This document shows, one piece after another, positions 20,369 through 33,644 of a stretch of DNA of 64,000 nt; the first letter of the stretch is position 1, and every line of letters begins with the position of its first letter. A program made the position numbers and the translations under genes. The notes beneath the pieces are model-generated. The model saw only the letters and a list, made by a program, of their open reading frames with translations, was not told the DNA's origin and ran no database searches. The stretch covers positions 7,251,241 to 7,315,240 of the forward strand of contig NZ_JAUSQZ010000001.1 in assembly GCF_030811555.1 (NCBI RefSeq), read 5' to 3'. The DNA is from Kineosporia succinea (lineage in GTDB: Bacteria; Actinomycetota; Actinomycetes; Actinomycetales; Kineosporiaceae).

Positions 20369-20734
20369 ATGGGACACGTGGCCGTATCCCTGTACCTCGT
20401 GCTGGCTGATCAGCTGACGGCGAGGATCCAGGGCGGGCACTACCCCTCCGGCTCGGCGCTACCGACCGCGTACGACCTGGAGCACGAGGGCCATCCCGTG
20501 CGGGTCGCCCGCGACGCCCTGCGCTGGCTCGTCAAGCACGGCTGGGCCGAGGCCGGGCCCGGCGGCGCCCTGCACGTCGCCGCCGACACCCACGACCACG
20601 GCCTCGACTGGGACCACCTGACCTCGGTGGTCGACTCCCTGGTCCAGGGTCACGCCGGGCTGCGGCCGGCGTCCTCGCTGATGCTGAACACCGCGTCCAC
20701 GGCCTCGAGCACGGCGGCCTCCGCCCCCGGGTAG
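20369..20734 (+). CDS. Mini GntR-type winged-helix protein
   Basis: 121 residues. The first ~70 match the GntR DNA-binding domain: LYLVLADQLTARIQGGHYPS, then GSALPTAYDLEHEG..RVARDALRWLVKHGW. No FadR, HutC or YtrA effector domain follows; the C-terminal ~45 residues are Ser/Ala-rich without homology I recognise. Its last 85 bp are antisense to the 3' end of the HisC-like gene. It could be a real small regulator, or a domain whose reading frame ran on into the neighbour. Confidence 0.6.
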   Translation: MGHVAVSLYLVLADQLTARIQGGHYPSGSALPTAYDLEHEGHPVRVARDALRWLVKHGWAEAGPGGALHVAADTHDHGLDWDHLTSVVDSLVQGHAGLRPASSLMLNTASTASSTAASAPG

Positions 20735-21735
20735 CCCATGGTCACGCGCACACCGTCACCGGCGAACGCGCGCACCGCCACTCCCCGTGCGGCACAGGCC
20801 TGCTCGAGTTCCAGCGCGCGATCCGCCACGGGCAGGAACACGAAGTTCGCCTGCGACGGCGGCACGTCCAGACCCCGCTCCCGCAGCTCCTTCTCGAACG
20901 CCTCCCGGCTCTGACACACCGACGCCACGATGTGCGTGGTGTGCTCCGGGTCGTCCAGGGCCGCGAGCGCCGCGGCCTCGGCCACCGCACTGAGCAGGAA
21001 CGGCGGCGCCACGGCCCGCATCGACGTCATGATCGACCCCGAGCCCAGCGCGTAGCCGGCCCGCAGCCCGGCCAGGCCGTAGGCCTTGGAGAACGTGCGG
21101 AACACGATGAGGTTCTCGTACCGGCCCACGAGATCGGCCACGTCGAGACGACTTTCGCCGAACTCCCGGTAGGCCTCGTCGAGCAGCACCACCACGTCGC
21201 GGGGCACCGCCTCGATCATCCGCAGCACCTCGTCGTCCGGAAGGGCCGTGCCGGTGGGGTTGTTCGGGTTGCAGATCATCACGGCGGCGGTGCGCGGGGT
21301 GATCGCGGCCAGCATCGCGTCGACGTCGTGCCGGTGCGCGGCGTCGAGCGGGACCGGCACCCGGTCGGCGTCGGCGATGCTGATCAGGATCGGGTAGGCC
21401 TCGTAACTGCGCCAGGCGTGCACCACTTCGGTACCCGAGCCGGTGAAGGCCGTGAGCGCGAGCTGCAGCAGCGAGAGCGACCCGCCCCCGACGACCACCT
21501 GCTCCGGCGAGACACCCACCCGGGCGCTCACCGCGTCCGTCAGTTCCTCGCCGGTCAGGGTCGGGTACAGGTGAGCCTGCGCGCCCGCGCGCGTGATCGC
21601 CTCCAGGATGGCCGGACTCGGCGGGACGGTGGACTCGTTCGACGACACGTTCCAGGTCACGGCCCGGCCCGCGGCGGCCCGCGAGTACTGCGGTATGGCC
21701 TTGACCTTGGCGCGGGGCTGGGGGCGCGCGCTCAC
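20650..21735 (-). CDS. HisC-like PLP-dependent aminotransferase
   Basis: 361 residues, class I/II aminotransferase of the histidinol-phosphate/aromatic (Pat) group. Cofactor residues: NPNNPTGTALP (Asn), LLDEAYREF (Asp and Tyr) and FRTFSKAYGLAGLRAGYA with the Schiff-base Lys; Arg near VRVTMGYP for the carboxylate. Its start overlaps the hutH stop by four bases (ATGA), so the two are co-translated. In a catabolic operon with histidine ammonia-lyase, transamination between histidine and imidazolepyruvate is more likely than a biosynthetic role, but aromatic amino acids are also possible substrates. Confidence 0.85.
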   Translation of the reverse strand: MSARPQPRAKVKAIPQYSRAAAGRAVTWNVSSNESTVPPSPAILEAITRAGAQAHLYPTLTGEELTDAVSARVGVSPEQVVVGGGSLSLLQLALTAFTGSGTEVVHAWRSYEAYPILISIADADRVPVPLDAAHRHDVDAMLAAITPRTAAVMICNPNNPTGTALPDDEVLRMIEAVPRDVVVLLDEAYREFGESRLDVADLVGRYENLIVFRTFSKAYGLAGLRAGYALGSGSIMTSMRAVAPPFLLSAVAEAAALAALDDPEHTTHIVASVCQSREAFEKELRERGLDVPPSQANFVFLPVADRALELEQACAARGVAVRAFAGDGVRVTMGYPGAEAAVLEAVDAVFSISEDAGRSPA

Positions 21736-23273
21736 CGGAGGGTCCCGGTGATCCGCTCGGCCGCGGCCACCAGCTCACCCGAGACGGCCAGCTGCACCAC
21801 GGCCTCGATCTCGGGAGCCAGGTAGCGGTCGGTTCCCGGACCCTCCACGTGCTCACGCAGCACGCTCTTCACGGCGGCGGTCGCGGGCGCCGGCTCCAGC
21901 GGGGCCCGCAGGTCGAGAGCCCGCGCGGCGGTGAGGATCTCGATCGAGATGACGCGACGCAGGCCGTCGATCGAGCGGCGCAGCTTGCGTGCGGCCGACC
22001 AGCCCATCGACACGTGGTCCTCCTGCATGGCCGACGAGGGGATCGAGTCGACGCTCGCCGGCACGGCCAGGCGCTTGAGCTCGGAGACGATGGCGGCCTG
22101 GGTGTACTGGGCGATCATGTGACCGGAGTCCACGCCCGGGTCGTCGGCCAGGAACGCGGGCAGGCCGTGGCTGCGCGCCGGGTCGAGCATGCGGTCGGTG
22201 CGGCGCTCGCTGATGCCGGCCAGGTCGGCCGTGGCGATGGCCAGGAAGTCGAGCACGTAGGCCACCGGGGCGCCGTGGAAGTTGCCGTTCGACTCCACCC
22301 GGCCGTCGGGCGTCACCACGGGATTGTCCACGGCGGAGGCCAGTTCGCGGGCGGCGACGCTGCGGGCGTGCGCGGCGGTGTCCCGCACGGCGCCGGCGAC
22401 CTGGGGGGCGCAGCGCAGCGAGTAGGCGTCCTGCACGATGCCGCAGACCTCGCGGTGGCTGAGCACGACCTGCGACTTGGCCAGGATGTCGGTCATGTTC
22501 GCGGCCGCCGCCGCCTGACCCGGGTGCGGGCGCAGGGCCTGCAGGTCGGCGGCGAACACCCGGTCGGTGCCGAGCAGGGCCTCGACGCTCATGGCGGCGG
22601 CGATGTCGGCGAGACGGGTGAGCTGGTCGAGGTCGGCCAGGGCGAGCACGAGCTGGCCGAGCATGCCGTCGGTGCCGTTGATGAGGGCCAGGCCCTCCTT
22701 CTCGGCGAGGACGACGGGCTCGATTCCCGCTGCTTCCAGGGCCTGGGAGGCCTCGAGTGCCTGCCCCCGGTGGTCGCGGACGGTCCCCTCACCGATCAGC
22801 GCCAGGGCCACGTGGGCCAGCGGGGCGAGATCGCCCGAGCAGCCCAGGCTTCCGTACTCGTGCACGATCGGGGTGATGCCCGCCGACAGCACGGCCGCGT
22901 AGGTCTCGGCGACCTCGAGGCGCACGCCGGTGCGGCCGGTGGCGAGCGTGGACAGGCGCAGCAGCATCAGCGCGCGCACGACCTCCCGCTCCACCTCCGG
23001 CCCGGAACCGGCGGCGTGCGAGCGGATCAGGCTGCGCTGCAGCTGGGCCCGCAGTTCGGTGGGGATGTGCCGGCTGGCCAGAGCGCCGAAACCGGTGGAC
23101 ACGCCGTAGACCGGGGTCGGGTTGTTGGCGAGGTCCTCGATGCGGGCGCGGGAGGTGGCGACGGCCCGCCGGGCTTCTTCGGTGAGCTCGACCGGGGCGC
23201 CGTGACGCGCGACGGCGACGAGGTCTTCCTCGGAGACGGGGCCGGTGCCCACCTGGACGGTTGCCTGGCTCAT
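21732..23273 (-). CDS. hutH: Histidine ammonia-lyase
   Basis: 513 residues from the ATG at 23273. Converts histidine to urocanate and ammonia, the first step of histidine degradation. The MIO-forming tripeptide is CSG in YGSLGCSGDLAPLAH rather than the commoner ASG; the same variant is familiar from actinobacterial HutH. YGVSTGFG, SHAAGSG, LINGTDG, YSLRCAPQV and SAMQEDHVS mark the active site; the Glu of the SENK position is kept (SELK). It heads a two-gene unit with the HisC-like gene and has an IclR-type palindrome 30-45 bp upstream. No hutU, hutI or hutF is in the window. Confidence 0.9.
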   Translation of the reverse strand: MSQATVQVGTGPVSEEDLVAVARHGAPVELTEEARRAVATSRARIEDLANNPTPVYGVSTGFGALASRHIPTELRAQLQRSLIRSHAAGSGPEVEREVVRALMLLRLSTLATGRTGVRLEVAETYAAVLSAGITPIVHEYGSLGCSGDLAPLAHVALALIGEGTVRDHRGQALEASQALEAAGIEPVVLAEKEGLALINGTDGMLGQLVLALADLDQLTRLADIAAAMSVEALLGTDRVFAADLQALRPHPGQAAAAANMTDILAKSQVVLSHREVCGIVQDAYSLRCAPQVAGAVRDTAAHARSVAARELASAVDNPVVTPDGRVESNGNFHGAPVAYVLDFLAIATADLAGISERRTDRMLDPARSHGLPAFLADDPGVDSGHMIAQYTQAAIVSELKRLAVPASVDSIPSSAMQEDHVSMGWSAARKLRRSIDGLRRVISIEILTAARALDLRAPLEPAPATAAVKSVLREHVEGPGTDRYLAPEIEAVVQLAVSGELVAAAERITGTLR

Positions 23274-23302
23274 GCGTTCATTCCTCAAAGTTGTCTTAGA
23301 AC

Positions 23303-23318
23303 CGAGACTTGAGTCTCG
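23303..23318. promoter_or_regulatory. IclR-type operator upstream of hutH
   Basis: CGAGACTTGAGTCTCG, arms of 7 bp with a 2-bp centre, 30 bp before the hutH start. The same sequence, with one arm mismatch, lies in the hisD/iclR gap and in weaker copies before 28442, so it most likely defines the regulon of the local IclR protein. Confidence 0.7.
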
Positions 23319-23370
23319 AAGGACGGAGACCGGCAGCCCTCTCCACGTTTCGCGGAGAGGGCTGCGGTGG

Positions 23371-24579
23371 TCAGCGCCGGATCAGCAGGTCCTCTGCGGA
23401 CTTCAGCGCCTCGATCGTGGTCACACCGTTCAGCTGCATCGTGCGCTTGAGCTGGTCGGCCAGGAGCTGGATCACCTTCGACACCCCGGGCTGCCCGGCG
23501 GCCGCGAGGCCCCACAGGTAGGGCCGGCCGACGAAGCAGGCGTCCGCCCCCAGGGCCAGGGCGACCGCGATGTCGGCGCCGTGCCGCACCCCGGAGTCGA
23601 CGAGCACCGTGGCGTCCGGCCCGAGTGCCGCCCGCACCGGGGCGACCAGGTCGATCGGGGCCACCGTGCGGTCGAGCTGACGTCCGCCGTGGTTGGACAG
23701 GTGCACGCCGTCGACGCCCAGGGAAGCCGCCCTCACCGCGTCCGTGGCCGAGACCGGGCCCTTCAGCAACAGTTTGCCGGGCCAGACCTCGCGGATGCGG
23801 GCGATGTCGTCCCAGCTGACGGCCGGGTCGAACTGCGAGGTGATGTTGGCGATGGTGTAACCGCCACCGCTCATCGCGTCGGTCAGATTGGCGAACTCCA
23901 GCGACGGGCTGCGGAGCATGCCGGTCCAGTAACGGGGCCGCAGGCCGATGTCGACCAGGCCGCCCAGTGTCAGGGACGGCGGGATGGTGAAGCCGTTGCG
24001 CACGTCGCGCACCCGGTAGCCCGAGACGGCCGTGTCCACGGCGATCTCGAGCACCCGGTAATCGGCCGCCGCCGCCCGTTCGACCAGCTTCAGCGCCATC
24101 TCGCGGTCTTTCCAGACGTAGAGCTGGAACCACCGGTCGAGATCGGGCGCCTGGCGGGCCAGTTCCTCGAGCGAGGTCGTGGCCATGGTCGAGAGCACGT
24201 ACGGGATCCCCGCCGCGGCCGCGGCCCGGGCCACGGCCGGCTCCCCCAGGGGCGAGATCATGCGGGTGTAACCGGTCGGCGACAGGCCCAGCGGCAGCGC
24301 GACCCGCTCCCCGAGAACGGAACCTTCGAGCGAAGGTGCCGAAACGTCCACCAGTGAGCGGGGACTGAAGCGCCACTGCCGGAACGCATCGACGTTGCCG
24401 GTCAGGCTCAGCTCGTCGTCGGCCCCGCCGTCGACGTAGTCGAGCACACTGCGCGGCAGCGAGCGGCGTGCGAACCGGTGCAGGTCCTCCACCGTCCTGG
24501 CCGCCGCCAGACGGCGTTCCACCTGGTCCAGCGCCGGGGGCCTGAGCTGGATGAGTTCCCGGATCTCGCGGGGCTTCAC
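23371..24579 (-). CDS. FMN-dependent alpha-hydroxy-acid dehydrogenase (LldD/mandelate family)
   Basis: 402 residues from the GTG at 24579, which overlaps the permease stop (GTGA). FMN-dependent TIM barrel: LSPTGYTRMISPLGE, catalytic His and Arg in SNHGGRQLDRTVAP, and phosphate-binding VDSGVRHGADIAVALALGAD followed by GRPYLWGLAA. It oxidises an L-2-hydroxy acid to the 2-keto acid. Lactate is the default annotation; the company of hutH, a HisC-like aminotransferase and hutD makes imidazolelactate an attractive alternative (inference). Confidence 0.87.
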   Translation of the reverse strand: MKPREIRELIQLRPPALDQVERRLAAARTVEDLHRFARRSLPRSVLDYVDGGADDELSLTGNVDAFRQWRFSPRSLVDVSAPSLEGSVLGERVALPLGLSPTGYTRMISPLGEPAVARAAAAAGIPYVLSTMATTSLEELARQAPDLDRWFQLYVWKDREMALKLVERAAAADYRVLEIAVDTAVSGYRVRDVRNGFTIPPSLTLGGLVDIGLRPRYWTGMLRSPSLEFANLTDAMSGGGYTIANITSQFDPAVSWDDIARIREVWPGKLLLKGPVSATDAVRAASLGVDGVHLSNHGGRQLDRTVAPIDLVAPVRAALGPDATVLVDSGVRHGADIAVALALGADACFVGRPYLWGLAAAGQPGVSKVIQLLADQLKRTMQLNGVTTIEALKSAEDLLIRR

Positions 24580-25979
24580 GAGGCCACCGGCGCATCGCCC
24601 CGCAGCGCGTCGAATCCGCGCCGCACCGGGTACTTCGTCATCAGGGCCCAGTACAGGCCACCGGCCACGAAGATGCCGATGATCCACGAGACGTCCGCGC
24701 CGCCGAGGGGTTCCACGAACGGGCCGGCGTAGAAGTCGGAGCTGACGAACGGCAGCTCGATCGCGATGCCGACCAGGTAGGCGGTCATCGCGCGCCAGTC
24801 CACACCACCGTAACGCCCGGTGGCGCTGAAGATGTCGTCGATGACGTAGCGCTCCTTCCGCACCAGGTAGAAGTCCACGAGGTTGATGGACGTCCACGGG
24901 ATCAGGAAGTAGGCCAGCAGCAGGATGAAGTTGGTGAAGTTGCCCAGGAAGTTCTCCCGTCCGACCACCGCGATCACCGTTCCGACCACCGCGCCGAGCA
25001 GGATCAGGCCCGTCCGCAGGGCGGGGCCGACCCTGCTGGTGCCCAGGGCCGTCAGCGTGGTGGTGGTCGACATGAACATGCCGTAGAGGTTCAGGGCGTT
25101 GACCGCGCCGTTGCCCGCCAGGATCACCAGCAGGAACAGCCAGACCGGGGCGCCGCCGAGACCGGCGATGAAGTCGACCGAGCCGCCGTCGAACGCCCCG
25201 GCCGCGGCCGACGTGGCCACCGCGCCGAACGCGAACATCCAGCTGGAGGCCAGCACGGTGCCGGTGTAGGTGTACCAGAAGGCCGCGCGCACCGACGTGG
25301 CCTCGGGCAGGTACCGCGAGTAGTCGGCCACGTAGGGCGCGTAGGTCAGCTGCCAGGTCGCCGCGATGGCGACGGCCAGCAGGAACAGGCCGACGTCGAA
25401 CTCACCGGAACCGGTGTCACCCAGGCCGTAGGTGCGCAGCAGCTGGATGGACAGCACGGCGAACGCGATGCCGCTGATGGCCGAGAGCCACTTCTCGGTC
25501 GCGTGCAGCAGGCGGTAGCCGAAGATGGTCAGGGCCGCGGTGAACGCGTTCGCGACCACGATGGCGACGTCGACCGGAAGGCCCGTCAGCGAGGCCAGCG
25601 CCTGCCCGTTGAGCACGGCGCTGCTCGCGAAGTACCCGACGTACATCAGCACCACGAGCAGCAGGGGAAGCACCGCGCCCAGGTAACCGAACTGGGCCCG
25701 GCTCTGGATCATCTGCGGGATACCGAGTTTCGGCCCCTGCGCGGAATGCAGCGCCATGAACACGGCACCCAGCAGGTGGCCGAGCACCGAGGCCAGCAGC
25801 GCCCACCCCAGCGGCAGGCCGACGGCGACCGCGATCGCGCCGGCCGCCACCGCGGTGACCTGCATGTTGCCGCCGAACCAGAGCGTGAACAGGCTCCGGA
25901 CCGAACCGTGACGCTCGGTCTCGGGGACGAAGTCGATGGTGCGGGTCTCGACCGTCACGGCCGAGGTGGGCGTGGACAT
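24576..25979 (-). CDS. NCS1 family permease (cytosine/hydantoin-type)
   Basis: 467 residues from the ATG at 25979, about 12 membrane segments. NCS1 features: LFTLWFGGNMQVTAVAAGAI in TM1, the Gln/Gly-rich ALHSAQGPKLGIPQMIQSRA loop, YAPYVADYSRYLP in the middle and FLIPWTSINLVDFYLVRK in TM10. The family imports nucleobases, hydantoins, allantoin and related ring compounds with Na+ or H+. Positioned between hisD-like and hydroxyacid dehydrogenase genes with overlapping ends (TGATG and GTGA), it is probably the uptake system for the substrate of this cluster, plausibly an imidazole. Confidence 0.88.
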   Translation of the reverse strand: MSTPTSAVTVETRTIDFVPETERHGSVRSLFTLWFGGNMQVTAVAAGAIAVAVGLPLGWALLASVLGHLLGAVFMALHSAQGPKLGIPQMIQSRAQFGYLGAVLPLLLVVLMYVGYFASSAVLNGQALASLTGLPVDVAIVVANAFTAALTIFGYRLLHATEKWLSAISGIAFAVLSIQLLRTYGLGDTGSGEFDVGLFLLAVAIAATWQLTYAPYVADYSRYLPEATSVRAAFWYTYTGTVLASSWMFAFGAVATSAAAGAFDGGSVDFIAGLGGAPVWLFLLVILAGNGAVNALNLYGMFMSTTTTLTALGTSRVGPALRTGLILLGAVVGTVIAVVGRENFLGNFTNFILLLAYFLIPWTSINLVDFYLVRKERYVIDDIFSATGRYGGVDWRAMTAYLVGIAIELPFVSSDFYAGPFVEPLGGADVSWIIGIFVAGGLYWALMTKYPVRRGFDALRGDAPVAS

Positions 25980-27316
25980 CAGGGGGCCGTTCGCGCGGTG
26001 ATGGTGGCGCCGTGGGCCGGGAAACCCTCGTGCTCGCAGAACGTGAGAACGGTCTTGGCCGAGCGCTCCAGGGCGCCGCGGTCGGCCTTGGCCACCGCCG
26101 ACCACTTGCGGAAGGCGTTGGCCGTGACGCCGCTCGAGACCTTGGCGTAGCCGCTGGTCGGGAGCGAGGCCGGGCAGCCGATGAAGAAGTTGGCCATGGC
26201 CACGGTGGTGTTCTGGCCGAGCAGGATCTCCGCGGCGTCGTGCAGCAGGTCGAGGACCCTGTCCTCGTCACGGGCCACGAGCTGCATGTGCTCGGGCGCG
26301 AAGGCGTTCGCCACCTGGGCGCCCTCCACCAGGTCACGCACGAGCACCACGCCGCCGTTGGTGCCGAGGGCCGTGGCCGCGTACTCGTCGCGCGGCGTGG
26401 GGAGCCGGTCGATCTGGGTGGCGAGCTCGGCCTGCACGGCGGCCAGCAGCGACGTGCTGTCGGTGACGAGCACGCTGGTCGAGTCCGGGCCGTGCTCGGC
26501 CTCGTTCAGCAGGTCGGCGGCGAGCAGGCGGGGATCGGCCGAGTCGTCGGCGAGGATCAGGCTCTCGCTCGGGCCGAGCAGCATCACGCTGGCCACGCCG
26601 AAGCGCTGCACCTCGACCTGGGCGGCGGTGACGGGTGGGCTGCCCGGGCCGCAGATCTTGCGCACGGCCGGGATGCTCTCGGTGCCGAACGCCAGGGCCG
26701 CGATCCCGGCCGGGCCGTTGGTGCGGAACACGTCGTGGATACCGAGCTCGTCGGCGGCGACCAGGACGGCCGGGTCGACCTTGCCGTTGCTGCCCGGGAT
26801 CGGCGGCACGACCACGGCGATCTGCGGTACGCCCGCGACCACGGCCGGCACCGCGAGCTGGATGAGGACGGACGGGTACGACCCCTTGCCGCTCGGCACG
26901 AACAGGCCGGCGCTGGCGATCGGGCTGGCCTTCTCGCCGACCCGCAGGCCCGGCTCGCTCTCGAACGACCAGTCACCGTGATGGCTGACGAGCTGCTCGT
27001 TGAAACTGCGCACGTGGGCGATGCTGTCGCGGATCGCCTCGATCATGTCCTCGCTGATCTCGGAGCGCGCGGCCGCGAACTCGGCCTCGGACACCTTGAT
27101 CTGGTCGGCCGTGATGACCGTCTTGTCGAACTTCTCCAGCGCCCGCAGCACCGCCGCGTCGCCGTGGGCCCGCACGTCCTCGAGCAGCTCGAGGATGCCC
27201 TCGCGCAGCTTCGGGTCGAAGATCGCCGCGCTGCCGCGCGTGGTGAGGTCGGCGCGCGACGGAAGGTCCATCTCGTGCCAGTAGCCGCGCTCGCGCAGAA
27301 CACCGGTGTCGGCCAT
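25979..27316 (-). CDS. Histidinol dehydrogenase-like NAD-dependent dehydrogenase (divergent active site)
   Basis: 445 residues. HisD fold: GLFVPSGKGSYPSVLIQLAV, ICGPGSPPVTAAQ for NAD, LLNEAEHGPDS, and the catalytic Glu-His pair in NAFAPEHMQL. Against E. coli HisD, His262 and His419 zinc ligands are kept, but Gln259 is Glu and Asp360 is Asn, and the GTNHVLPT substrate motif is GCPASLPT, losing its His. Such changes suggest a relative acting on another alcohol, as known for sulfopropanediol dehydrogenase. First gene of a three-gene unit with the permease and hydroxyacid dehydrogenase, preceded by an IclR-type operator. Confidence 0.82.
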   Translation of the reverse strand: MADTGVLRERGYWHEMDLPSRADLTTRGSAAIFDPKLREGILELLEDVRAHGDAAVLRALEKFDKTVITADQIKVSEAEFAAARSEISEDMIEAIRDSIAHVRSFNEQLVSHHGDWSFESEPGLRVGEKASPIASAGLFVPSGKGSYPSVLIQLAVPAVVAGVPQIAVVVPPIPGSNGKVDPAVLVAADELGIHDVFRTNGPAGIAALAFGTESIPAVRKICGPGSPPVTAAQVEVQRFGVASVMLLGPSESLILADDSADPRLLAADLLNEAEHGPDSTSVLVTDSTSLLAAVQAELATQIDRLPTPRDEYAATALGTNGGVVLVRDLVEGAQVANAFAPEHMQLVARDEDRVLDLLHDAAEILLGQNTTVAMANFFIGCPASLPTSGYAKVSSGVTANAFRKWSAVAKADRGALERSAKTVLTFCEHEGFPAHGATITARTAP

Positions 27317-27398
27317 GGGTGGATCAGCTCCTCAACAAACTCGGGAGAACGTGCGTCCCCTATATTCGGCGACTCTTCCAGAGGCACAGTCTCAAATA

Positions 27399-27414
27399 CC
27401 AGACTCAAGTCTCG
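27399..27414. promoter_or_regulatory. IclR-type operator between hisD-like and iclR genes
   Basis: CCAGACTCAAGTCTCG, the reverse complement of the hutH site with one mismatch in one arm. It lies 83 bp from the hisD-like start and 111 bp from the iclR start, so it can act on both divergent promoters. A further half-site AGTCTC is at 27389-27394. Confidence 0.65.
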
Positions 27415-27525
27415 GCTTTACGATTTCCAGGAGTGTAGGGCACCTCAAGACGTTTGCGAAGGGGGCACTTTCACCCCGATGCTCTACGGAACGTCGACCC
27501 GGACAGAGCAGGAGCAACACTTCCG

Positions 27526-28335
27526 ATGACTGGCAGCAGCAGCCGTGTGAAGTCCGCCGAGCGGGTGCTGGCGGTGCTCGACCTCCTCGCCCGGCACGCC
27601 GGCCCGGTGACGACGGCCGCCGTCTCGTCCGAGCTCGAACTGCCCAAGAGCACCACCCACCACCTGCTCAACGTCATGCTGCGCCAGCGGTACGTGGCCT
27701 ACTGGCCCGACATCCGGATGTGGACGCTGGGCGTGGCGGCCTTCGAGATCGGCGCGGCCTACCACCGCAGCGGCCACCTGCAGCATGCCGCCCAGCGGTA
27801 CCTCAGCGACCTCACCGCGCGCACCGGGCACACCAGCCATCTCGCCGTCCTGCAGGGCAATGACGTCATCTACCTGGACAAACGCGAACCTCGGGGCTCC
27901 GGCATCCGGCTGGTCACCGACGTCGGCACCCGGCTTCCGGCCCACCTGACGGCGGTCGGACGGTCACTGCTGTCCACCCTCGGTACCGACGCGCTGGTGT
28001 CGATGTACACCGGCTACGACTGGCCCCAGCGCACCGACGTGCGGGTCGCGTCGCTGGGCGACCTGCTGCCCGCCCTGGACGACGTCCGGCGGCAGGGATA
28101 CGCCCTGGAACTGGGCGCGACCACCGATGGCATCGAGTGCATCGCGGCCCCGGTGCTGGTCGCCGACGGCAGTGCGGTGGCCGCCGTCGGGATCGCGATG
28201 GTCGCCGGAACGGGTGTCGACGCGAGTGCCCTGACCGCTTCGGTGCTGGACGCCGCCCGCTCGTTCTCGAACTCCCTGACGAATGAGAACAGCGGCTCCG
28301 GAAACACCGACGCAATCAACGAAACAGAGATTTAA
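27526..28335 (+). CDS. IclR family transcriptional regulator of the histidine-related cluster
   Basis: 269 residues from the ATG at 27526 (MTGSSSRVKSAERVLAVLDL). N-terminal winged helix-turn-helix (VTTAAVSSELELPKSTTHHL, about 29-48) and C-terminal IclR effector domain with the usual GTRLPAHLTAVGRSLLSTL, GIECIAAPVLVADG and AVGIAMVAG elements. It is divergent from the hisD-like operon and is followed by the MDR/SDR/hutD unit; near-identical palindromes precede each unit. Repression relieved by the imported substrate or an intermediate is the likely mode. The last ~20 residues are Ser/Asn-rich. Confidence 0.9.
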   Translation: MTGSSSRVKSAERVLAVLDLLARHAGPVTTAAVSSELELPKSTTHHLLNVMLRQRYVAYWPDIRMWTLGVAAFEIGAAYHRSGHLQHAAQRYLSDLTARTGHTSHLAVLQGNDVIYLDKREPRGSGIRLVTDVGTRLPAHLTAVGRSLLSTLGTDALVSMYTGYDWPQRTDVRVASLGDLLPALDDVRRQGYALELGATTDGIECIAAPVLVADGSAVAAVGIAMVAGTGVDASALTASVLDAARSFSNSLTNENSGSGNTDAINETEI

Positions 28336-28344
28336 CGCCGAGCC

Positions 28345-28398
28345 CGGCTCTTGAGTCCCGCGCAGGAGCCGTGTGTATATTCCAAGACCCAAGTCTGA
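28345..28398. promoter_or_regulatory. Two weak IclR-type sites before the MDR/SDR/hutD unit
   Basis: CGGCTCTTGAGTCCCG (28345-28360) and CAAGACCCAAGTCTGA (28383-28398) each match the 16-bp operator at 12 positions, in opposite orientation, on either side of a TGTATAT sequence that looks like a -10 box. Confidence 0.5.
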
Positions 28399-28441
28399 GA
28401 AACGAGACCAAGAACGTTTCCGGATCACGGAGGGCAACCCC

Positions 28442-29419
28442 ATGAAGCGCACGACACCGGCGTTGATGCTCCAGCAGGACCTCACCTACGAGATCGGTAC
28501 CCGCGAGCTGGCTCCCCGCGAGCCCGGCGAGGTGCTGGTGGAGGTCGCCTGGGCCGGGATCTGCGGCTCCGACCTGCACGTGGTGAACACCGGGGCCTGG
28601 GTCAGCTACTGGCCCGCCACGATCGGCCACGAGGTGACGGGGCGGGTGCTGGAGTCCGACAACCCGGCGCTGCCCGTGGGCACCGGCGTGGTGCTTGACT
28701 CCCGGATCCCCCGCCGCCGCGACGACGGCGCGCTGCGCGCCGACCGGCTCGACGCCGACCTGGCCTGGCTGGGCGAGGAACGCCCGGGGGGTTTCGCCGG
28801 GCTCGTCACCGTTCCGGCCGAAAGCGCCTTCCCGGTGCCGGATTCCCTGGATCTTGAGGACGCGGTGCTCGCCGAGCCGCTCGCGGTCACCCTGTGCGCG
28901 CTGGACGGCGTCCGATCCGCACCGGACCGGCTGCTCGTGCTCGGTTTCGGGCCGATCGGCGCCCTCACCGCCGCCGCCGCGCGCCGGCGCTGGCCGTCGT
29001 GCGCCGTCGAGGTGGTCGAACCCGGCGCCGGACGTGCGGAACTGGCCCGGAGCATGGGCTTCACCGTCCTTGACGCCCCCGAGGGACTTTTCGACGTGGT
29101 GGTGGACGCCGCCGGTTACCCGGGTGCCCTCCAGGCCGCGGTCCGGGCCACCCGCAACGGCGGTGCGGTCCTGCTCATCGCCCTGGCCCACGGCCCCAGC
29201 AGCGTCGAGTCGGCGATGATCGTGGAGCGCAGCCTCTCGCTGACCGGCAGCCACGGCTTCGACGACGAGCACCTGCGGCAGGCCATCACGTTCCTGGCCG
29301 AGGCCCCGCACGAGTTCCGCCCGGTCGTGTCCCACCGTCTGCGGCTCGCCGAACTGCCCGGCTTCCTCACCCACGGCCGCCCCGACGCGGTCAAGGTCCT
29401 GATCAAGGGGCAGCCATGA
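28442..29419 (+). CDS. MDR-family dehydrogenase lacking the structural-zinc loop
   Basis: 325 residues. Catalytic-zinc Cys in AGICGSDLHVV and the GHEVTGRV motif are present, and LVLGFGPIGALTAAAA is the dinucleotide site. The lobe that normally carries four cysteines for structural zinc is replaced by a polar stretch (RIPRRRDDGALRADRLDADL) with no Cys. Related to sorbitol/threonine-type dehydrogenases. The stop overlaps the next start (ATGA), so it is co-translated with an SDR. It probably oxidises an alcohol intermediate of the imidazole/histidine route (inference). Confidence 0.8.
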   Translation: MKRTTPALMLQQDLTYEIGTRELAPREPGEVLVEVAWAGICGSDLHVVNTGAWVSYWPATIGHEVTGRVLESDNPALPVGTGVVLDSRIPRRRDDGALRADRLDADLAWLGEERPGGFAGLVTVPAESAFPVPDSLDLEDAVLAEPLAVTLCALDGVRSAPDRLLVLGFGPIGALTAAAARRRWPSCAVEVVEPGAGRAELARSMGFTVLDAPEGLFDVVVDAAGYPGALQAAVRATRNGGAVLLIALAHGPSSVESAMIVERSLSLTGSHGFDDEHLRQAITFLAEAPHEFRPVVSHRLRLAELPGFLTHGRPDAVKVLIKGQP

Positions 29420-30138
29420 CCCGGCGTTATCTCGTCACCGGCGGCACCAGCGGCATCGGGGCGGCCGTCGCACGGCATCTGGCCGACGAGGGGGCCGCGG
29501 TCTGGATCACCGGAACCCGGCGCGAGACACTGGATCCCGCCCTGTCCGGTTCCGGTGTGGCGGGTGGCAGTGTCTGCGACGTCGCGTCCGCCTCCGCCGT
29601 TTCCCAGGCTTTCGAGGACGCGTCGGCGAACCTCGGTGGACTGGACGGGGTTTTCGTCAACGCGGGCATCGACGGGCAGGGCGTCGCGGCGGAAAGCCTC
29701 GACCCCGAGCAGTTCACCAGGCTGCTGGCGGTGAACGTGACCGGGATCCTCCTGTGCGCCCAGGCGGCCCACGCGCGTCTGGCGCGCCCGGGCGCGATCG
29801 TGATCAACGCGTCCGTCAATGCGGTTCGGCCCGAGACGCACTTCGCCGACTACAACGCGAGCAAGGCCGCGGCCGAGTCGCTGGCCAGGTCGTTCGCGCT
29901 GGAGTGGAGCGCGCAGGGGCTGTGCGTCACGAGCGTGCTGCCCGGTTACTTCCCCTCCCGGATGACGTCGCCCTACCTCGAGGACCCGCAGACCCGGGCC
30001 GAGCTGCTGGCCCGGATCCCGGCCGGGCGCTTCGGCGAGGGGGCGGAGATCGGCGCCACGGTGTCGTTCCTGCTGTCCGGCCAGGCGCAGTTCCTGTCCG
30101 GGGCGAGCATCGCGATCGCGGGTGCGAGCAACATCTGA
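29416..30138 (+). CDS. Short-chain dehydrogenase/reductase
   Basis: 240-residue classical SDR. Cofactor motif TGGTSGIGAAVARHL at the N-terminus, NAG at FVNAGIDG, catalytic Ser in VINASVNAV and the YNASK tetrad (Tyr, Lys) at about residue 150, then PGYFPSRMTSPY. NAD preference is suggested by the acidic/Arg region after strand 2 but is not certain. Overlaps the MDR gene before it (ATGA) and hutD after it (TGATG), giving a tightly coupled three-gene unit under the IclR-type sites. Confidence 0.88.
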   Translation: MTRRYLVTGGTSGIGAAVARHLADEGAAVWITGTRRETLDPALSGSGVAGGSVCDVASASAVSQAFEDASANLGGLDGVFVNAGIDGQGVAAESLDPEQFTRLLAVNVTGILLCAQAAHARLARPGAIVINASVNAVRPETHFADYNASKAAAESLARSFALEWSAQGLCVTSVLPGYFPSRMTSPYLEDPQTRAELLARIPAGRFGEGAEIGATVSFLLSGQAQFLSGASIAIAGASNI

Positions 30139-30629
30139 TGCTGCACCGCTACGCGTCCGCACCCGACGAGCCCTGGAAGAACGGCGCCGGCACCACGCGC
30201 CGCCTCTACGCCGACGCCGGCCTCCGGGTCAGCGTCGCGACCATCGCCCAGGACGGCCCCTTCTCGGTCTTCCCGGGCCTGGAGCGGGTTTTCATACCGG
30301 TGGACGCGGCGGTCGCCCTGGCCGTCGACGGCGTCGTGTCTCGCGCGGAACCGTGGACCGCGACCCGCTTCCCGGGGGACGCGACGGTGTCCGCGGGCCT
30401 TCTCGAGGGGCCCACCCGCGTCCTCAATCTGATGTTCGACCCGGCCCTGCTCACGCTCGGCGTGCGGATCGAGCCGGTGCACGGACCGGTCGCGGACGCG
30501 GTTCTCCTGACGGGCGAGGGCCTCTCGAGCGACGGCGAGCCCGTGAGCCCGCTCGACCTGGTCCTGGGTGAGGCCGGGCTCCACGGCCTGGTCGCACGGA
30601 TCAGCCGTCGACCGCCGGCCTGCGACTGA
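30138..30629 (+). CDS. hutD: HutD family protein
   Basis: 163 residues, ATG overlapping the SDR stop. HutD cupin-like family: the signature WKNGAGTTRRLYADAG near the N-terminus, ATIAQDGPFSVFPGLERVFI and a C-terminal half with MFDPALLTLGVRIEP. HutD occurs in hut operons of proteobacteria and actinobacteria, where it has been proposed to limit or sense urocanate/formimino intermediates. Its presence is the second independent tie, besides hutH, between this cluster and histidine breakdown. Confidence 0.87.
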   Translation: MLHRYASAPDEPWKNGAGTTRRLYADAGLRVSVATIAQDGPFSVFPGLERVFIPVDAAVALAVDGVVSRAEPWTATRFPGDATVSAGLLEGPTRVLNLMFDPALLTLGVRIEPVHGPVADAVLLTGEGLSSDGEPVSPLDLVLGEAGLHGLVARISRRPPACD

Positions 30630-30802: not shown

Positions 30803-31165
30803 ATGGCTCTTCGATGGGAACAGGTGATCGTGCACGCCGAGGATCCGGCGGCACTGGGGCAGTGGTGGGCGGACGCGCTGGGCTGGGTGGTCGACTTCGC
30901 CGGCGACGACGAGTTCGAGATCCTGCCGGCGCCCGGCCGCAGACCCGGCATCGACTTCGTGCGGCTCGCGGAGGCGAAGCAGGGCAAGAGCCGTCTGCAC
31001 CTCGACTTCCGGCCCGACGACCAGGCCGCCGAGGTGGCCCGGCTGGAGGGGCTCGGGGCGAGGCGCGTCGACATCGGGCAGGGCGATGCGTCGTGGGTCG
31101 TGCTGGCCGATCCGGAGGGCAACGAGTTCTGCGTGCTGGGGGCGCGAGCCGCCACCGACGGCTGA
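30803..31165 (+). CDS. VOC-family (glyoxalase/bleomycin-resistance-like) protein
   Basis: 120 residues with the paired beta-alpha-beta-beta-beta modules of the vicinal-oxygen-chelate superfamily: WEQVIVHAEDPAALGQWWAD, the central KSRLHLDFRPDD and the final SWVVLADPEGNEFCVLG. His in the first strand, His in LHLDF and Glu in GNEFCVL could bind metal. Members with this short single-domain form are often of unknown substrate. It is preceded by about 170 bp (30630-30802) without a recognisable gene; a 38-codon minus-strand frame there ends within hutD and was not called. Confidence 0.8.
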   Translation: MALRWEQVIVHAEDPAALGQWWADALGWVVDFAGDDEFEILPAPGRRPGIDFVRLAEAKQGKSRLHLDFRPDDQAAEVARLEGLGARRVDIGQGDASWVVLADPEGNEFCVLGARAATDG

Positions 31166-31228
31166 GCCGCCGCCCAGCGGTGAGGGGGGTTCTGCCGGAC
31201 CCTCCTCCCAGCTGGGCCTCCCACCCGC

Positions 31229-31265
31229 GCTGAACAGCAGGTTTGATCGTGACGACCTGTTCAGC
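31229..31265. promoter_or_regulatory. Inverted repeat upstream of the zinc alcohol dehydrogenase
   Basis: GCTGAACAG (31229-31237) is complementary to CTGTTCAGC (31257-31265), arms of 9 bp, centre 36 bp before the start at 31283. AGGT/ACCT extend the arms after one mismatch. Likely a regulator site; the regulator is not adjacent. Confidence 0.45.
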
Positions 31266-31282
31266 CGGAAGGACCAACGCTC

Positions 31283-32299
31283 ATGCGCGCCACGATCATG
31301 CACGGCCCCCGCGACGTCCGCGTCGAGACCGTCGACGACCCCACGATCCTCGAGCCGACCGACGCGATCATCCGCCTGGCCGCCGCCTGCGTCTGCGGAT
31401 CCGACCTGTGGCCCTACCGCGGTCACGACCACACCGCCGGGCCCACCGCGATGGGCCACGAGTACGCCGGCACCGTCGTCGAGACCGGCAGCGCCGTCAC
31501 CACCGTCGAACCCGGCCAGTTCGTCGTCGGCTCGTTCTTCGCCTCCGACAACACCTGCGAGATCTGCCGCTCCGGCTACCAGAGCGGCTGCGTGCACCGC
31601 CAGGGCATCGGCGGCTCCCAGGCCGAGCTCATGCGCGTCCCCCTGGCCGACGGCACCCTCGTGGCCACCCCCCAGACGCCCGAGACCCGGCACGTCCCCG
31701 GCCTCCTGGCCGCCTCCGACGTCCTCGGCACCGGCTGGTTCGCGGCCCACGCCGCCCAGGCCGGACCGGGCCGCACCGTCGCCGTCGTGGGTGACGGCGC
31801 CGTCGGCCTGCTCGGGGTGCTGGCCGCCCGGCAACTCGGCGCCGAGCGCATCATCGCGATGAGCCGGCACGAGTCCCGGCAGAACCTGGCCCGTGAGTTC
31901 GGGGCCACCGACATCGTCACCGAACGCGGCGACGAGGGCGTGCGGCGCATCAAGGACCTGACGAACGGCCTGGGCGCACACAGCGTCATCGAGGCCGTCG
32001 GCACCCAGGAGTCCATGCTCCAGGCCGTCCGCTCCACCCGCGCCGGGGGCCACGTCGGCTACGTCGGTGTCTCCCACGACGTGAACCTGCCCGGCCTGGA
32101 ACTGTTCTTCTCCCACGTGCACCTGCACGGCGGCCCGGCCCCGGTGCGCCAGTACCTGCCCGAGCTCATCGACCTGATCCTGGCCGACAAGATCGACCCG
32201 GGCCGGGTCTTCGACCTGACGCTCCCCCTCGACGAGGCGGCGGAGGCCTACCGGGCGATGGACGAGCGGCGCGCGATCAAGGTGCTCCTGCAGCCCTGA
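31283..32299 (+). CDS. Zinc-dependent alcohol dehydrogenase
   Basis: 338-residue MDR enzyme. Catalytic zinc residues in ACVCGSDLWPYRG and MGHEYAGTV, structural-zinc region NTCEICRSGYQSGC (three of four Cys seen in this form), and NAD(P)-binding VAVVGDGAVGLLGVLAARQL. The CGSDLWPY variant and high similarity show it is a paralogue of the gene at 53037-54068. Followed by a strong terminator, so it is monocistronic. An inverted repeat just upstream suggests inducible expression. Confidence 0.88.
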   Translation: MRATIMHGPRDVRVETVDDPTILEPTDAIIRLAAACVCGSDLWPYRGHDHTAGPTAMGHEYAGTVVETGSAVTTVEPGQFVVGSFFASDNTCEICRSGYQSGCVHRQGIGGSQAELMRVPLADGTLVATPQTPETRHVPGLLAASDVLGTGWFAAHAAQAGPGRTVAVVGDGAVGLLGVLAARQLGAERIIAMSRHESRQNLAREFGATDIVTERGDEGVRRIKDLTNGLGAHSVIEAVGTQESMLQAVRSTRAGGHVGYVGVSHDVNLPGLELFFSHVHLHGGPAPVRQYLPELIDLILADKIDPGRVFDLTLPLDEAAEAYRAMDERRAIKVLLQP

Positions 32300-32308
32300 C
32301 GCCTCACC

Positions 32309-32340
32309 GAACGGCCGGTCCTCGCGAGGGCCGGCCGTTC
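32309..32340 (+). terminator. Terminator of the zinc alcohol dehydrogenase gene
   Basis: GAACGGCCGG (32309-32318) pairs with CCGGCCGTTC (32331-32340); CCTCGCGAGG inside prolongs the stem. It begins 10 bp after the stop. Confidence 0.75.
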
Positions 32341-32486
32341 GCCGTTTGCCGAGGATCCGGAGAAACCCAGGCTTTCCGGAGCCCACCAGGGCTTATTTTG
32401 TCCGGACTCTGGAGAAACCAAAACTTAATAGCGGGCTATCAATCGGGATATTGACCGCTAACTGTCGGAACGAGGATGGTTCCGGC

Positions 32487-33644
32487 ATGTCAATCATGTC
32501 CGGCTCCCGCGGCCTCGGCGCCCTGCGCGCCGTCAACCGCCGTCGGCTGCTGGACCTGCTGCGCGAGCACGGCGAGATCAGCCGCGCCGACCTGGCCCGG
32601 CTCACCGAGCTGTCGGCCACCACCGTCTCCAGCCTGGTCACCGAGCTGGCCGCCGAGGGCGTCGTCACCGAGGCCGGTCTCGAGAACCCGCGGCGAACGG
32701 GCAGAACCGGGCGTCCGGGGCGCCTGGTCCGGCTGGTCGGCGGGCGCGGTCTCGTCGTGGCCCTCGACCTCAGCCGTGAGCAGGTGCAGGCCGCCGTCTG
32801 CGACCTGTCCGGCGCCGTCGTCACCGAGCGGCGCTGGCCCCTGCCGGTGCACGACATCGAGAACCTGCCCCGCATCGCCGAACTCGTCAACGAGCTGGCC
32901 GAGGGCCCCCGCGATCTGGTCTCGCGCCTGGTCGTGGCCGTGCCCGGGGTGGTCGACACCCGCACCGGGCAGGTGAACTCGGCCCGCCTGCCGAGCTGGC
33001 AGCACATCGCGCCGGGTCCGGTGCTGGCCGCCGCCACCGGCCTGGAGACGTTCGTCGAGAACGACGCCGACCTGTGCGCCCTGGGCGAGCGGGCCTTCGG
33101 CGCGGCCGTCGGGCTGAGCGACGTGGTCTACCTCAAGGCGTCGTCGGGCATCGGTGTCGGCCTGGTGCTGACAGGGCACCTGTACCGCGGGAAGCACGGC
33201 GGCACGGGCGAACTCGGGCACGTGCAGGTGGACGAGTTCGGTGACCTCTGCCTGTGCGGCAACCGGGGGTGCCTGGAGACGCTCGCGTCGGTGGACGTGG
33301 TGCTCACCGCCCTGCGCGTCGTGCGTCCCGAGGTGCAGACACCCGCCGACCTGGCCGATCTGGTGCGCGCGGGCGATCGGGCCGCGATCCGTGTGGTCAC
33401 CGACGCCGGCGCCGCGATCGGCAAGGCCGTGGCCGCGCTCTGCAACGTGCTCGCCCCGCAGGCCGTGGTGGTCGGCGGCGAACTGGCCGACGGCGGAACG
33501 CATCTGGCCGGGGCCGTGCGCGACGCCGTGAACCGCTACACCAAACCCCTGACCGCCGAGGGCATCGCCGTACTGCCCGCGGAACTCGGACGCCGCGCCG
33601 CTCTGCTGGGTGCTGTCACCACCGCGGTGGAGGCCGTCCAGTAG
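32487..33644 (+). CDS. ROK family transcriptional repressor
   Basis: 385 residues from the ATG at 32487; an ATG nine bases later is also possible. N-terminal winged helix (ISRADLARLTELSATTVSSL) and C-terminal ROK sugar-kinase-like domain with ENDADLCALGERAFG, GTGELGHVQVDE and the zinc motif CLCGNRGCLE. The sugar site EXGH is conserved, so a sugar ligand probably lifts repression. It stands directly before a sugar ABC importer and hexosaminidase, so its targets are probably those genes. Upstream, TCCGGA-containing repeats (32354-32415) include GGAGAAACC twice. Confidence 0.88.
   Translation: MSIMSGSRGLGALRAVNRRRLLDLLREHGEISRADLARLTELSATTVSSLVTELAAEGVVTEAGLENPRRTGRTGRPGRLVRLVGGRGLVVALDLSREQVQAAVCDLSGAVVTERRWPLPVHDIENLPRIAELVNELAEGPRDLVSRLVVAVPGVVDTRTGQVNSARLPSWQHIAPGPVLAAATGLETFVENDADLCALGERAFGAAVGLSDVVYLKASSGIGVGLVLTGHLYRGKHGGTGELGHVQVDEFGDLCLCGNRGCLETLASVDVVLTALRVVRPEVQTPADLADLVRAGDRAAIRVVTDAGAAIGKAVAALCNVLAPQAVVVGGELADGGTHLAGAVRDAVNRYTKPLTAEGIAVLPAELGRRAALLGAVTTAVEAVQ

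Follow-up and report, generated by a model that had tools for sequence, protein, structure and literature searches.

A putative IclR-controlled branch of histidine utilization in Kineosporia succinea

Why should hutH and hutD be found together with relatives of the histidine-biosynthesis enzymes HisC and HisD, an alpha-hydroxyacid dehydrogenase dependent on flavin mononucleotide (FMN), a permease, two further dehydrogenases and an IclR-family regulator? The question is raised by nine genes within a 64,000-nucleotide stretch of Kineosporia succinea (contig NZ_JAUSQZ010000001.1, positions 7,251,241 to 7,315,240 of the forward strand), hereafter the window, in which position 1 is the first letter. 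As judged from sequence, the cluster is, on balance, rather likely to be a peripheral branch of histidine utilization (hut), in which an imidazole-bearing alcohol or hydroxy acid would be converted to histidine, and this to urocanate, under IclR control. The link of the cluster to hut is well supported by sequence comparisons; we infer each reaction, the sequence in which they occur and, most of all, the compound with which they begin. The elements are listed below (the HutR and Hps proteins, which belong to known systems, are introduced later).

20650..21735, minus strand: pyridoxal phosphate (PLP) aminotransferase, class I/II, HisC/Pat-like (PF00155; NF002878), proposed to convert imidazolepyruvate to histidine
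21732..23288, minus strand, ATG likely at 23273: HutH, histidine ammonia-lyase (TIGR01225), proposed to convert histidine to urocanate
23293..23316, plus strand: predicted composite HutR-type operator 1, upstream of the hutH-aminotransferase unit, GTCTTAGAACCGAGACTTGAGTCT, one of three in the whole genome
23371..24582, minus strand: FMN alpha-hydroxyacid dehydrogenase (PF01070), proposed to convert imidazolelactate to imidazolepyruvate
24576 to about 25979, minus strand: NCS1-family permease (PF02133, 220.3 bits), proposed to take up an imidazole compound
25979..27316, minus strand: HisD-like dehydrogenase (TIGR00069), proposed to carry out the four-electron oxidation of a primary alcohol
27389..27412, plus strand: predicted composite HutR-type operator 2, between the hisD-like gene and iclR, GTCTCAAATACCAGACTCAAGTCT
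27454..28335, plus strand, ATG possibly at 27526: IclR-family regulator (PF01614, PF09339)
28385..28408, minus strand: predicted composite HutR-type operator 3, upstream of MDR-SDR-hutD, GTCTCGTTTCTCAGACTTGGGTCT
28373..29419, plus strand, ATG likely at 28442: MDR (zinc-type) dehydrogenase (PF08240/PF00107), HpsP-like role proposed
29416..30138, plus strand: SDR dehydrogenase (PF13561/PF00106), HpsO-like role proposed
30138..30629, plus strand: HutD (PF05962, 91.8 bits)

A first-pass annotation, made from the sequence alone, had described nine genes in three units. All nine frames are present in the open reading frame list of the window between 20650 and 30629, and Pfam and NCBIfam profile searches agree with the family given to each of the nine, which confirms that description. 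The genes form three coupled units, with stop/start overlaps, as calculated from the coordinates, at five junctions (HisD-like to NCS1, NCS1 to FMN, HutH to aminotransferase, MDR to SDR and SDR to HutD), and are set apart by gaps of roughly 97 bp in front of hutH, 137-209 bp from hisD-like to iclR and roughly 106 bp in front of the MDR gene. The real starts of the permease (about 25979), hutH (23273), iclR (27526) and MDR (28442) genes probably lie inside the longest frames, as the sequence suggests.

In the proposed pathway, the NCS1 permease would take up an imidazole compound bearing a side chain of three carbons, the MDR and SDR enzymes would deal with its secondary-alcohol or stereochemical forms, as HpsP and HpsO do with the enantiomers of sulfopropanediol, and the HisD-like enzyme would oxidize the primary alcohol to the acid, as HpsN does, to yield imidazolelactate. 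The FMN enzyme would then produce imidazolepyruvate, the aminotransferase histidine and HutH urocanate, the breakdown of which would be completed by the products of a hutU-M20-hutF-hutI operon located elsewhere in the genome. The precedent is the catabolism of sulfopropanediol (DHPS), in which, according to the available parts of two reports (PMC11131964, PMC11382572), the enantiomers are oxidized by HpsO (an SDR), HpsP (an MDR) and HpsN (HisD-like). In those parts the two reports disagree on HpsO and HpsP, which are either 2-dehydrogenases that interconvert the enantiomers or oxidize the primary alcohol to the aldehyde; by analogy, either role would serve the pathway proposed here. One of the two reports also states that the sulfonate in HpsN occupies the zinc position taken by imidazole in HisD and that no activity of HpsN on L-histidinol was detectable. 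Thus, the HisD family can hold either head group, and since the HisD/SDR/MDR/FMN set is that of the conversion of the DHPS diol to the lactate, the same logic is proposed to operate on imidazole. The starting substrate would most likely be imidazolyl-1,2-propanediol or imidazolelactate.

Regulation provides a first tie with hut. A palindrome with an extra half-site was first noticed by inspecting the three gaps of the cluster. GTCT-N8-AGAC occurs three times in the window (at 23293, 27389 and 28393), and the composite GTCT-N8-AGAC-N4-GTCT three times in the whole genome, a single contig of 8.07 Mb, once per gap, with none for a reversed-pattern control; the composite site is also found at 14 of 129 loci, namely nine related clusters (L009-L015, L028 and L050) and five loci of the cluster itself. 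The published operator motif of HutR, an IclR-type regulator of histidine utilization, is GTCTGWWATWCCAGAC in the part of the source available (PMC8222616), where an external direct half-site is also described for some motifs of the IclR family and was shown to be required for PcaU binding. The first 16 bp of operator 2, at 27389, match this motif at 15 of 16 positions and the site at 28393 at 13 of 16; the site at 23293, with its outer half-sites kept, is absent among the matches with at most three mismatches. Furthermore, GTCTCGGATTCGAGAC lies between the hut iclR and hutU of the host genome and likewise before hutU in L012 and L014, the relaxed motif TCTNNNATNCNAGA is found at four places in the host genome, two of which are hutU and the cluster, and a one-mismatch HutR-type site (15298) precedes the hutH of L034. 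When the cluster IclR is compared with the host genome's own IclR proteins, the best score among the ten other matches is that of the protein encoded divergently from hutU (138.9 versus 73.3 bits for the next). With HutR-type operators in all three gaps and at hutU, and the hut IclR as nearest paralogue, the IclR control suggested in the first-pass annotation gains support, and a single IclR protein, a relative of the hut IclR, would govern all three units through the three predicted composite operators.

Recurrence of the neighbourhood provides the second tie. When named genomes were scanned once with the HisD-like protein, 80 loci were obtained, representing the best of 119 relatives; the scan made use of peptide patterns, and the stretches covered by these are biased accordingly. 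The counts refer to loci L009-L060 (52 of the 80), reduced to 32 by removing 20 that have a flank shorter than 4 kb; L061-L088, none of which exceeds 50% identity to the HisD-like protein of the window, were left out; neighbouring genes are tblastn matches at E 1e-12 within at most 10 kb on each side. At the 32 flanked loci, relatives of SDR are present in 23 cases, MDR in 19, the FMN enzyme in 21, HutH and the aminotransferase in 14 each, IclR in 18, HutU in 11 and HutI in 8. SDR, MDR and FMN enzymes stand together beside the HisD-like gene at 18 of them; these core loci also hold HutH (11), the aminotransferase (13), IclR (17), HutU (8) and a match to an NCS1 permease or an ABC importer (17). 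At 13 control loci of other HisD proteins, from the host genome and genomes of the set (ten group with canonical HisD and two with HpsN; L122 is outside the tree), MDR, FMN enzyme, HutH, HutU and IclR are all at zero and SDR is seen once, with the aminotransferase and HisB at five each, as expected for his operons. The order IclR-MDR-SDR-HisD-NCS1-FMN-HutH-AT (AT, aminotransferase) is common to Nocardia and Mycobacteriaceae (L010-L014), L015 has it without HutH and AT, and in Streptomyces shenzhenensis (L009) the gene content is identical, iclR being on the opposite strand. The gene set thus recurs across actinobacterial families in the comparison of homologues that the first-pass annotation had called for; a chance neighbourhood is ruled out by this recurrence together with the operators. 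Indeed, hutU, hutI and hutF adjoin related clusters, and the presence of hutH, hutU and hutI there speaks for the suggested flow through histidine to urocanate. A consistent lack of hutH and hutD from related clusters, which would have told against that suggestion, is not seen for hutH, whereas it largely is for hutD, relatives of which are near only two of 56 related loci (L016 and L034). A search of plasmids at the DNA level gave eight records that match hutH or a short permease stretch only, with no cluster, and the SDR protein had no match on plasmids at 1e-30.

In L018 (13562-15250), L020 and L021, and also in the short locus L102, a thiamine-diphosphate (TPP) enzyme is encoded near the FMN enzyme; L018, L020 and L021 have no hutH or aminotransferase gene within the stretch searched. 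By analogy with comDE of the sulfopropanediol operon, the TPP enzyme is possibly a decarboxylase for the keto acid.

Related modules of different composition are found beyond these clusters. Rhizobial plasmids (Sinorhizobium, Shinella) carry genes for SDR, ABC importer, HisD-like enzyme, MDR, hutC, kinase and FMN oxidase, with a divergent aminotransferase, and Klebsiella plasmids those for FMN oxidase, ABC importer, HisD-like enzyme, kinase, MDR and SDR. The HutC-type proteins of the Sinorhizobium and Phyllobacterium modules are over the TIGR02018 cut-off (257.5 and 289.8 versus 220). The plasmid modules are L111, L112, L104 and L105 (rhizobial and related), each with a gene annotated hutC, and L106/L108 and L113 (Klebsiella); their products carry the annotations histidinol dehydrogenase, glucose 1-dehydrogenase and hypothetical protein, and the FMN enzyme of L105 is annotated as two pieces. 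The kinase-like protein, which accompanies the module in Actinomycetota, rhizobia and Klebsiella plasmids, is homologous between the plasmids and Microbacteriaceae (best matches 46-53%); three examples follow.

L016, 13501-14799: kinase-like protein with HGDxHxxN loop
L111, 11087-12379: kinase-like protein with HGDxHxxN loop
L113, 13232-14527: kinase-like protein with HGDxHxxN loop

For one member no match was found in Pfam at 1e-5, in NCBIfam at 1e-30 or among PDB sequences up to E 0.1, and the structure model of the kinase bears a weak resemblance to phosphotransferases (best E 1.9e-5; highest template modelling (TM) score on the query 0.44 among the 50 matches listed). A HisB relative is present at nine and the kinase at eight of the 32 loci, and at 13 and 18 of all 52, never both together. 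The hisB relative directly follows the HisD-like gene in L066, L072, L075, L078, L080-L082 and L084, from archaea and bacteria. In ten small actinobacterial genomes, of which the completeness was not given (L036, L037, L039-L043, L049, L054 and L057; G396-G405), the only HisD is of the HisD-like branch and the only HisB is a divergent relative encoded beside it; in nine of the ten, HisA/HisF is matched over its full length. The idea that the HisB-like gene is purely catabolic was dropped, since it is the sole HisB of these genomes along with a sole HisD of the branch; there, as the gene content suggests, it may be biosynthetic.

The HisD-like enzyme is at the centre of any reading of the cluster. 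It passes the TIGR00069 hisD model (376.6 versus 243.8 bits), which does not tell HisD from HpsN, as a Leisingera HpsN-type protein scores 444.3; it is only 35% identical to the other HisD of the host genome, and its gene, unlike that of a canonical HisD, is not in a his operon. Its AlphaFold model (mean predicted local distance difference test, pLDDT, 92.7) has HisD (6an0, 1kae), then HpsN, as nearest structures. At the aligned positions that we take, from E. coli HisD, to be the zinc ligands, Glu, His, Asn and His replace the Gln, His, Asp and His of canonical HisD. Of 92 aligned relatives, 88 have Glu, 87 have Asn and all have the two His; the counts of Glu and Asn are biased because one search pattern covered Glu and another Asn; six plasmid modules found without patterns also agree with the exchange. 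L063 has Ser instead of Asn, and Gln and Asp are both kept in four of the 92, i.e. the second HisD of the host genome, the Leisingera HpsN-type protein, and those of Paracoccus and Klebsiella michiganensis. The two residues are exchanged together in one HisD branch, from actinobacteria to archaea, including enzymes beside hisB. A tree of 55 hand-chosen rows separates this branch (40 rows) from canonical HisD and HpsN with support 100/98, the actinobacterial and plasmid proteins being two distinct groups inside it. That the protein is itself an HpsN is ruled out by the tree and by its G-K-G-S-Y where HpsN has G-R-Y-A/S-H.

Would histidinol, then, be the alcohol oxidized? L-histidinol might be converted directly to histidine by the HisD-like enzyme and passed to HutH, with the FMN enzyme and the aminotransferase as a second entry for imidazolelactate and the MDR and SDR enzymes serving stereoisomers. 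The members of the branch followed by a hisB relative, and those that are the sole HisD of ten small genomes, point to histidinol as an ancestral substrate, the closest structures to the model are those of HisD, and an inducible histidinol-oxidizing Arthrobacter reportedly exists, although it was not found in the literature search. However, such a route needs HisD and HutH only, and leaves the MDR, SDR and FMN enzymes, together at 18 of 32 loci, and the aminotransferase, at 13 of the 18, without a clear role. It is therefore judged doubtful, while being the alternative that survives best. With regard to the entry by 'histidinol or a similar alcohol' envisaged in the first-pass annotation, an imidazolyl-1,2-diol appears at least as likely as histidinol, since the HisD/SDR/MDR/FMN set matches a chemistry from diol to lactate to pyruvate.

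The host genome has a second HisD at 4684847, with a HisC-like frame about 3 kb off, a second HutH at 674573 (71% identical to that of the cluster) and a distant HutH relative at 1977281 (31%). An operon iclR|hutU-M20-hutF-hutI (M20, an amidohydrolase) lies at about 1984-1990 kb, far outside the window. Whole-genome profile searches gave one hutU and one hutI above cut-off, neither in the window, and other hut genes were not seen among the frames listed for 18.5-33 kb of it; the remaining hut genes are indeed elsewhere, as had been supposed. The cluster HisD-like and HutH proteins are thus extra copies, and the downstream hut pathway is present. The HisD-like protein is rare in the order, as matches at E 1e-100 or better are found in three of 396 genomes sampled from it, the host's own included.

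Near the hutU-M20-hutF-hutI operon the sole relative of HutH is a distant one (30%), and the 205 bp before the isolated hutH at 674573 contain no GTCT-N8-AGAC. The cluster hutH may therefore be the inducible hutH, which leads to the view that it is simply the organism's main one, surrounded by loosely related neighbours. We consider this improbable, as the composite operator is common to all three units and the same set is found in Streptomyces, Nocardia and Mycobacteriaceae.

A further question is whether the ring is imidazole at all. HutH is over the TIGR01225 hutH equivalog cut-off (657.1 versus 539.15 bits), has the MIO-forming motif GSLGCSGDLAP and an RSH motif, the Ser-His pair of which we take to determine substrate selectivity in HutH, and is 77% identical to the HutH of an annotated Tsukamurella hut cluster; in a comparison of 25 HutH stretches, including three repeats, RSH was matched in 20, and not in L055, L056, L063 or the distant HutH copy of the host genome. 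The FMN enzyme, which retains the catalytic motif SNHGGRQL and also LLKGP, has (S)-mandelate dehydrogenases (6bfg, 1huv) as best PDB matches. The aminotransferase misses the TIGR01141 hisC equivalog cut-off (266.8 versus 276.55 bits) and narrowly passes that of the NF002878 subfamily (377.6 versus 374 bits); its best PDB sequence match is 4r2n, a putative phenylalanine aminotransferase. These last two likenesses, and the fact that NCS1 permeases carry varied rings, would fit an aryl, indolyl or hydantoin substrate, with hutH acting on another aromatic amino acid. Such a reading is quite improbable in view of the identity of HutH to the other HutH of the genome and to that of the annotated hut cluster, its RSH motif, the hutU, hutI and hutF genes beside related clusters, the HutR-type operators and the HutC-type repressors of rhizobial modules. 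Very improbable indeed is a reverse direction, in which transamination and reduction of histidine would provide imidazolelactate or an alcohol to be exported, HutH being merely co-regulated. Although aminotransferases and NAD dehydrogenases are reversible, FMN hydroxyacid dehydrogenases work oxidatively, as does the four-electron reaction of HisD-type enzymes; a match to an NCS1 permease or to an ABC importer of the binding-protein type is present at 17 of the 18 core loci, and regulation of the same type as that of hutU fits catabolism.

Among the other proteins, the NCS1 permease is below the TIGR00800 cut-off (153 versus 353.1 bits), the MDR protein keeps the GICGSD and GHE motifs and has 14 PDB sequence matches at 1e-15, including 8wwd, a zinc-containing alcohol dehydrogenase, and the SDR protein has 8sy8 (TsaC) as sole PDB match at 1e-30. 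Just 3' of the cluster (30803-33644), frames for a small glyoxalase-like protein, a zinc-type dehydrogenase (31283-32299) and a ROK-like regulator are seen, their translations being judged by eye.

Several observations weigh against the proposed branch of histidine utilization. The three palindromes of the window were found by inspecting the gaps, so that their count is weak, and six of 100 shuffles reach three; operators 1 and 3 fit the published HutR motif poorly between the outer half-sites; the degenerate HutR-like pattern with three mismatches is not enriched in the window (five found, 6.93 expected); and two of the four places of the relaxed motif adjoin no recognised hut gene, with frames judged by eye. 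The full SDR, MDR and FMN core is incomplete at 14 of the 32 loci, and hutH is missing from seven and the aminotransferase from five of the 18 core loci, within the stretch searched; such loci may use copies elsewhere or involve another fate, for which the TPP enzyme near L018, L020 and L021 would be a candidate. The HutC-type proteins miss a second HutC model, NF011575 (222.6 and 244.5 versus 424), and the kinase or HisB relative of many related modules has no use in the proposed scheme. Finally, Glu and Asn replace the Gln and Asp zinc ligands of both HisD and HpsN, so that neither precedent transfers directly. With these points weighed, the first-pass interpretation as a whole is supported by the sequence comparisons.

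A broader reading is more tentative, and we would give it somewhat less than an even chance: a widespread, undescribed catabolism of unphosphorylated imidazole-C3 alcohols (imidazolyl-propanediol, imidazoleacetol, imidazoleglycerol), run by the distinct Glu/Asn HisD branch in at least three forms, would drain into hut and mirror the last steps of histidine biosynthesis. Under this same tentative reading the forms would be that with NCS1 (the cluster), that with the kinase (Microbacteriaceae, rhizobia, Klebsiella plasmids) and that with the HisB-like protein (Solirubrobacterales and kin). No published description of the gene set was found among the papers listed on the pathway or its compounds (at most 20 per search), as judged by titles and abstract openings, with subscription papers mostly outside. 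If the proposed branch of histidine utilization is real, a catabolic pathway that is among those studied longest would gain an upstream arm, genes of actinobacteria and of rhizobial and Klebsiella plasmids that now carry the labels histidinol dehydrogenase, histidinol-phosphate transaminase and glucose 1-dehydrogenase would be given a role, and imidazole alcohols or imidazolelactate would be real environmental nutrients. The sulfopropanediol gate, made of HisD-like, SDR, MDR and FMN enzymes, would then be found on a second head group, with a second zinc-ligand set within the HisD family.

Three known systems offer a comparison. The DHPS operons (hpsN/hpsO/hpsP) of Cupriavidus and Roseobacteraceae share the HisD-like, SDR and MDR families with the cluster, and a Leisingera plasmid the FMN oxidase as well: its operon (L109) encodes TRAP, a HisD with the HpsN motif (GRYSH), SDR, MDR, comDE and an FMN alpha-hydroxy acid oxidase. 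This sulfopropanediol-type operon combines the latter with sulfopyruvate decarboxylase. The Leisingera SDR and MDR are not matched by those of the window at E 1e-12 and, being too dissimilar for that threshold, reduce the likeness to one of families and layout. The cluster has no sulfopyruvate enzymes, but an aminotransferase and HutH where the DHPS operon has comDE, and its HisD-like protein, unlike HpsN, lacks the G-R-Y-A/S-H motif and has Glu and Asn at two zinc positions. With HisC and HisD of histidine biosynthesis it shares the families of its aminotransferase and HisD-like enzyme, whereas it is not in a his operon and the zinc-ligand residues differ. The available parts of the reports on the HutR system of Corynebacterium resistens (PMC3350403, PMC8222616) describe features that are shared by the cluster, i.e. 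HutH, an operator of GTCTGWWATWCCAGAC type and an IclR-family regulator, and the external third half-site of the cluster operators corresponds to the layout described there for PcaU, PobR and HmgR (PMC8222616). HutR, however, belongs there to the hut genes themselves, whereas the IclR of the cluster, a paralogue of the hut IclR, sits with the upstream feeder set.

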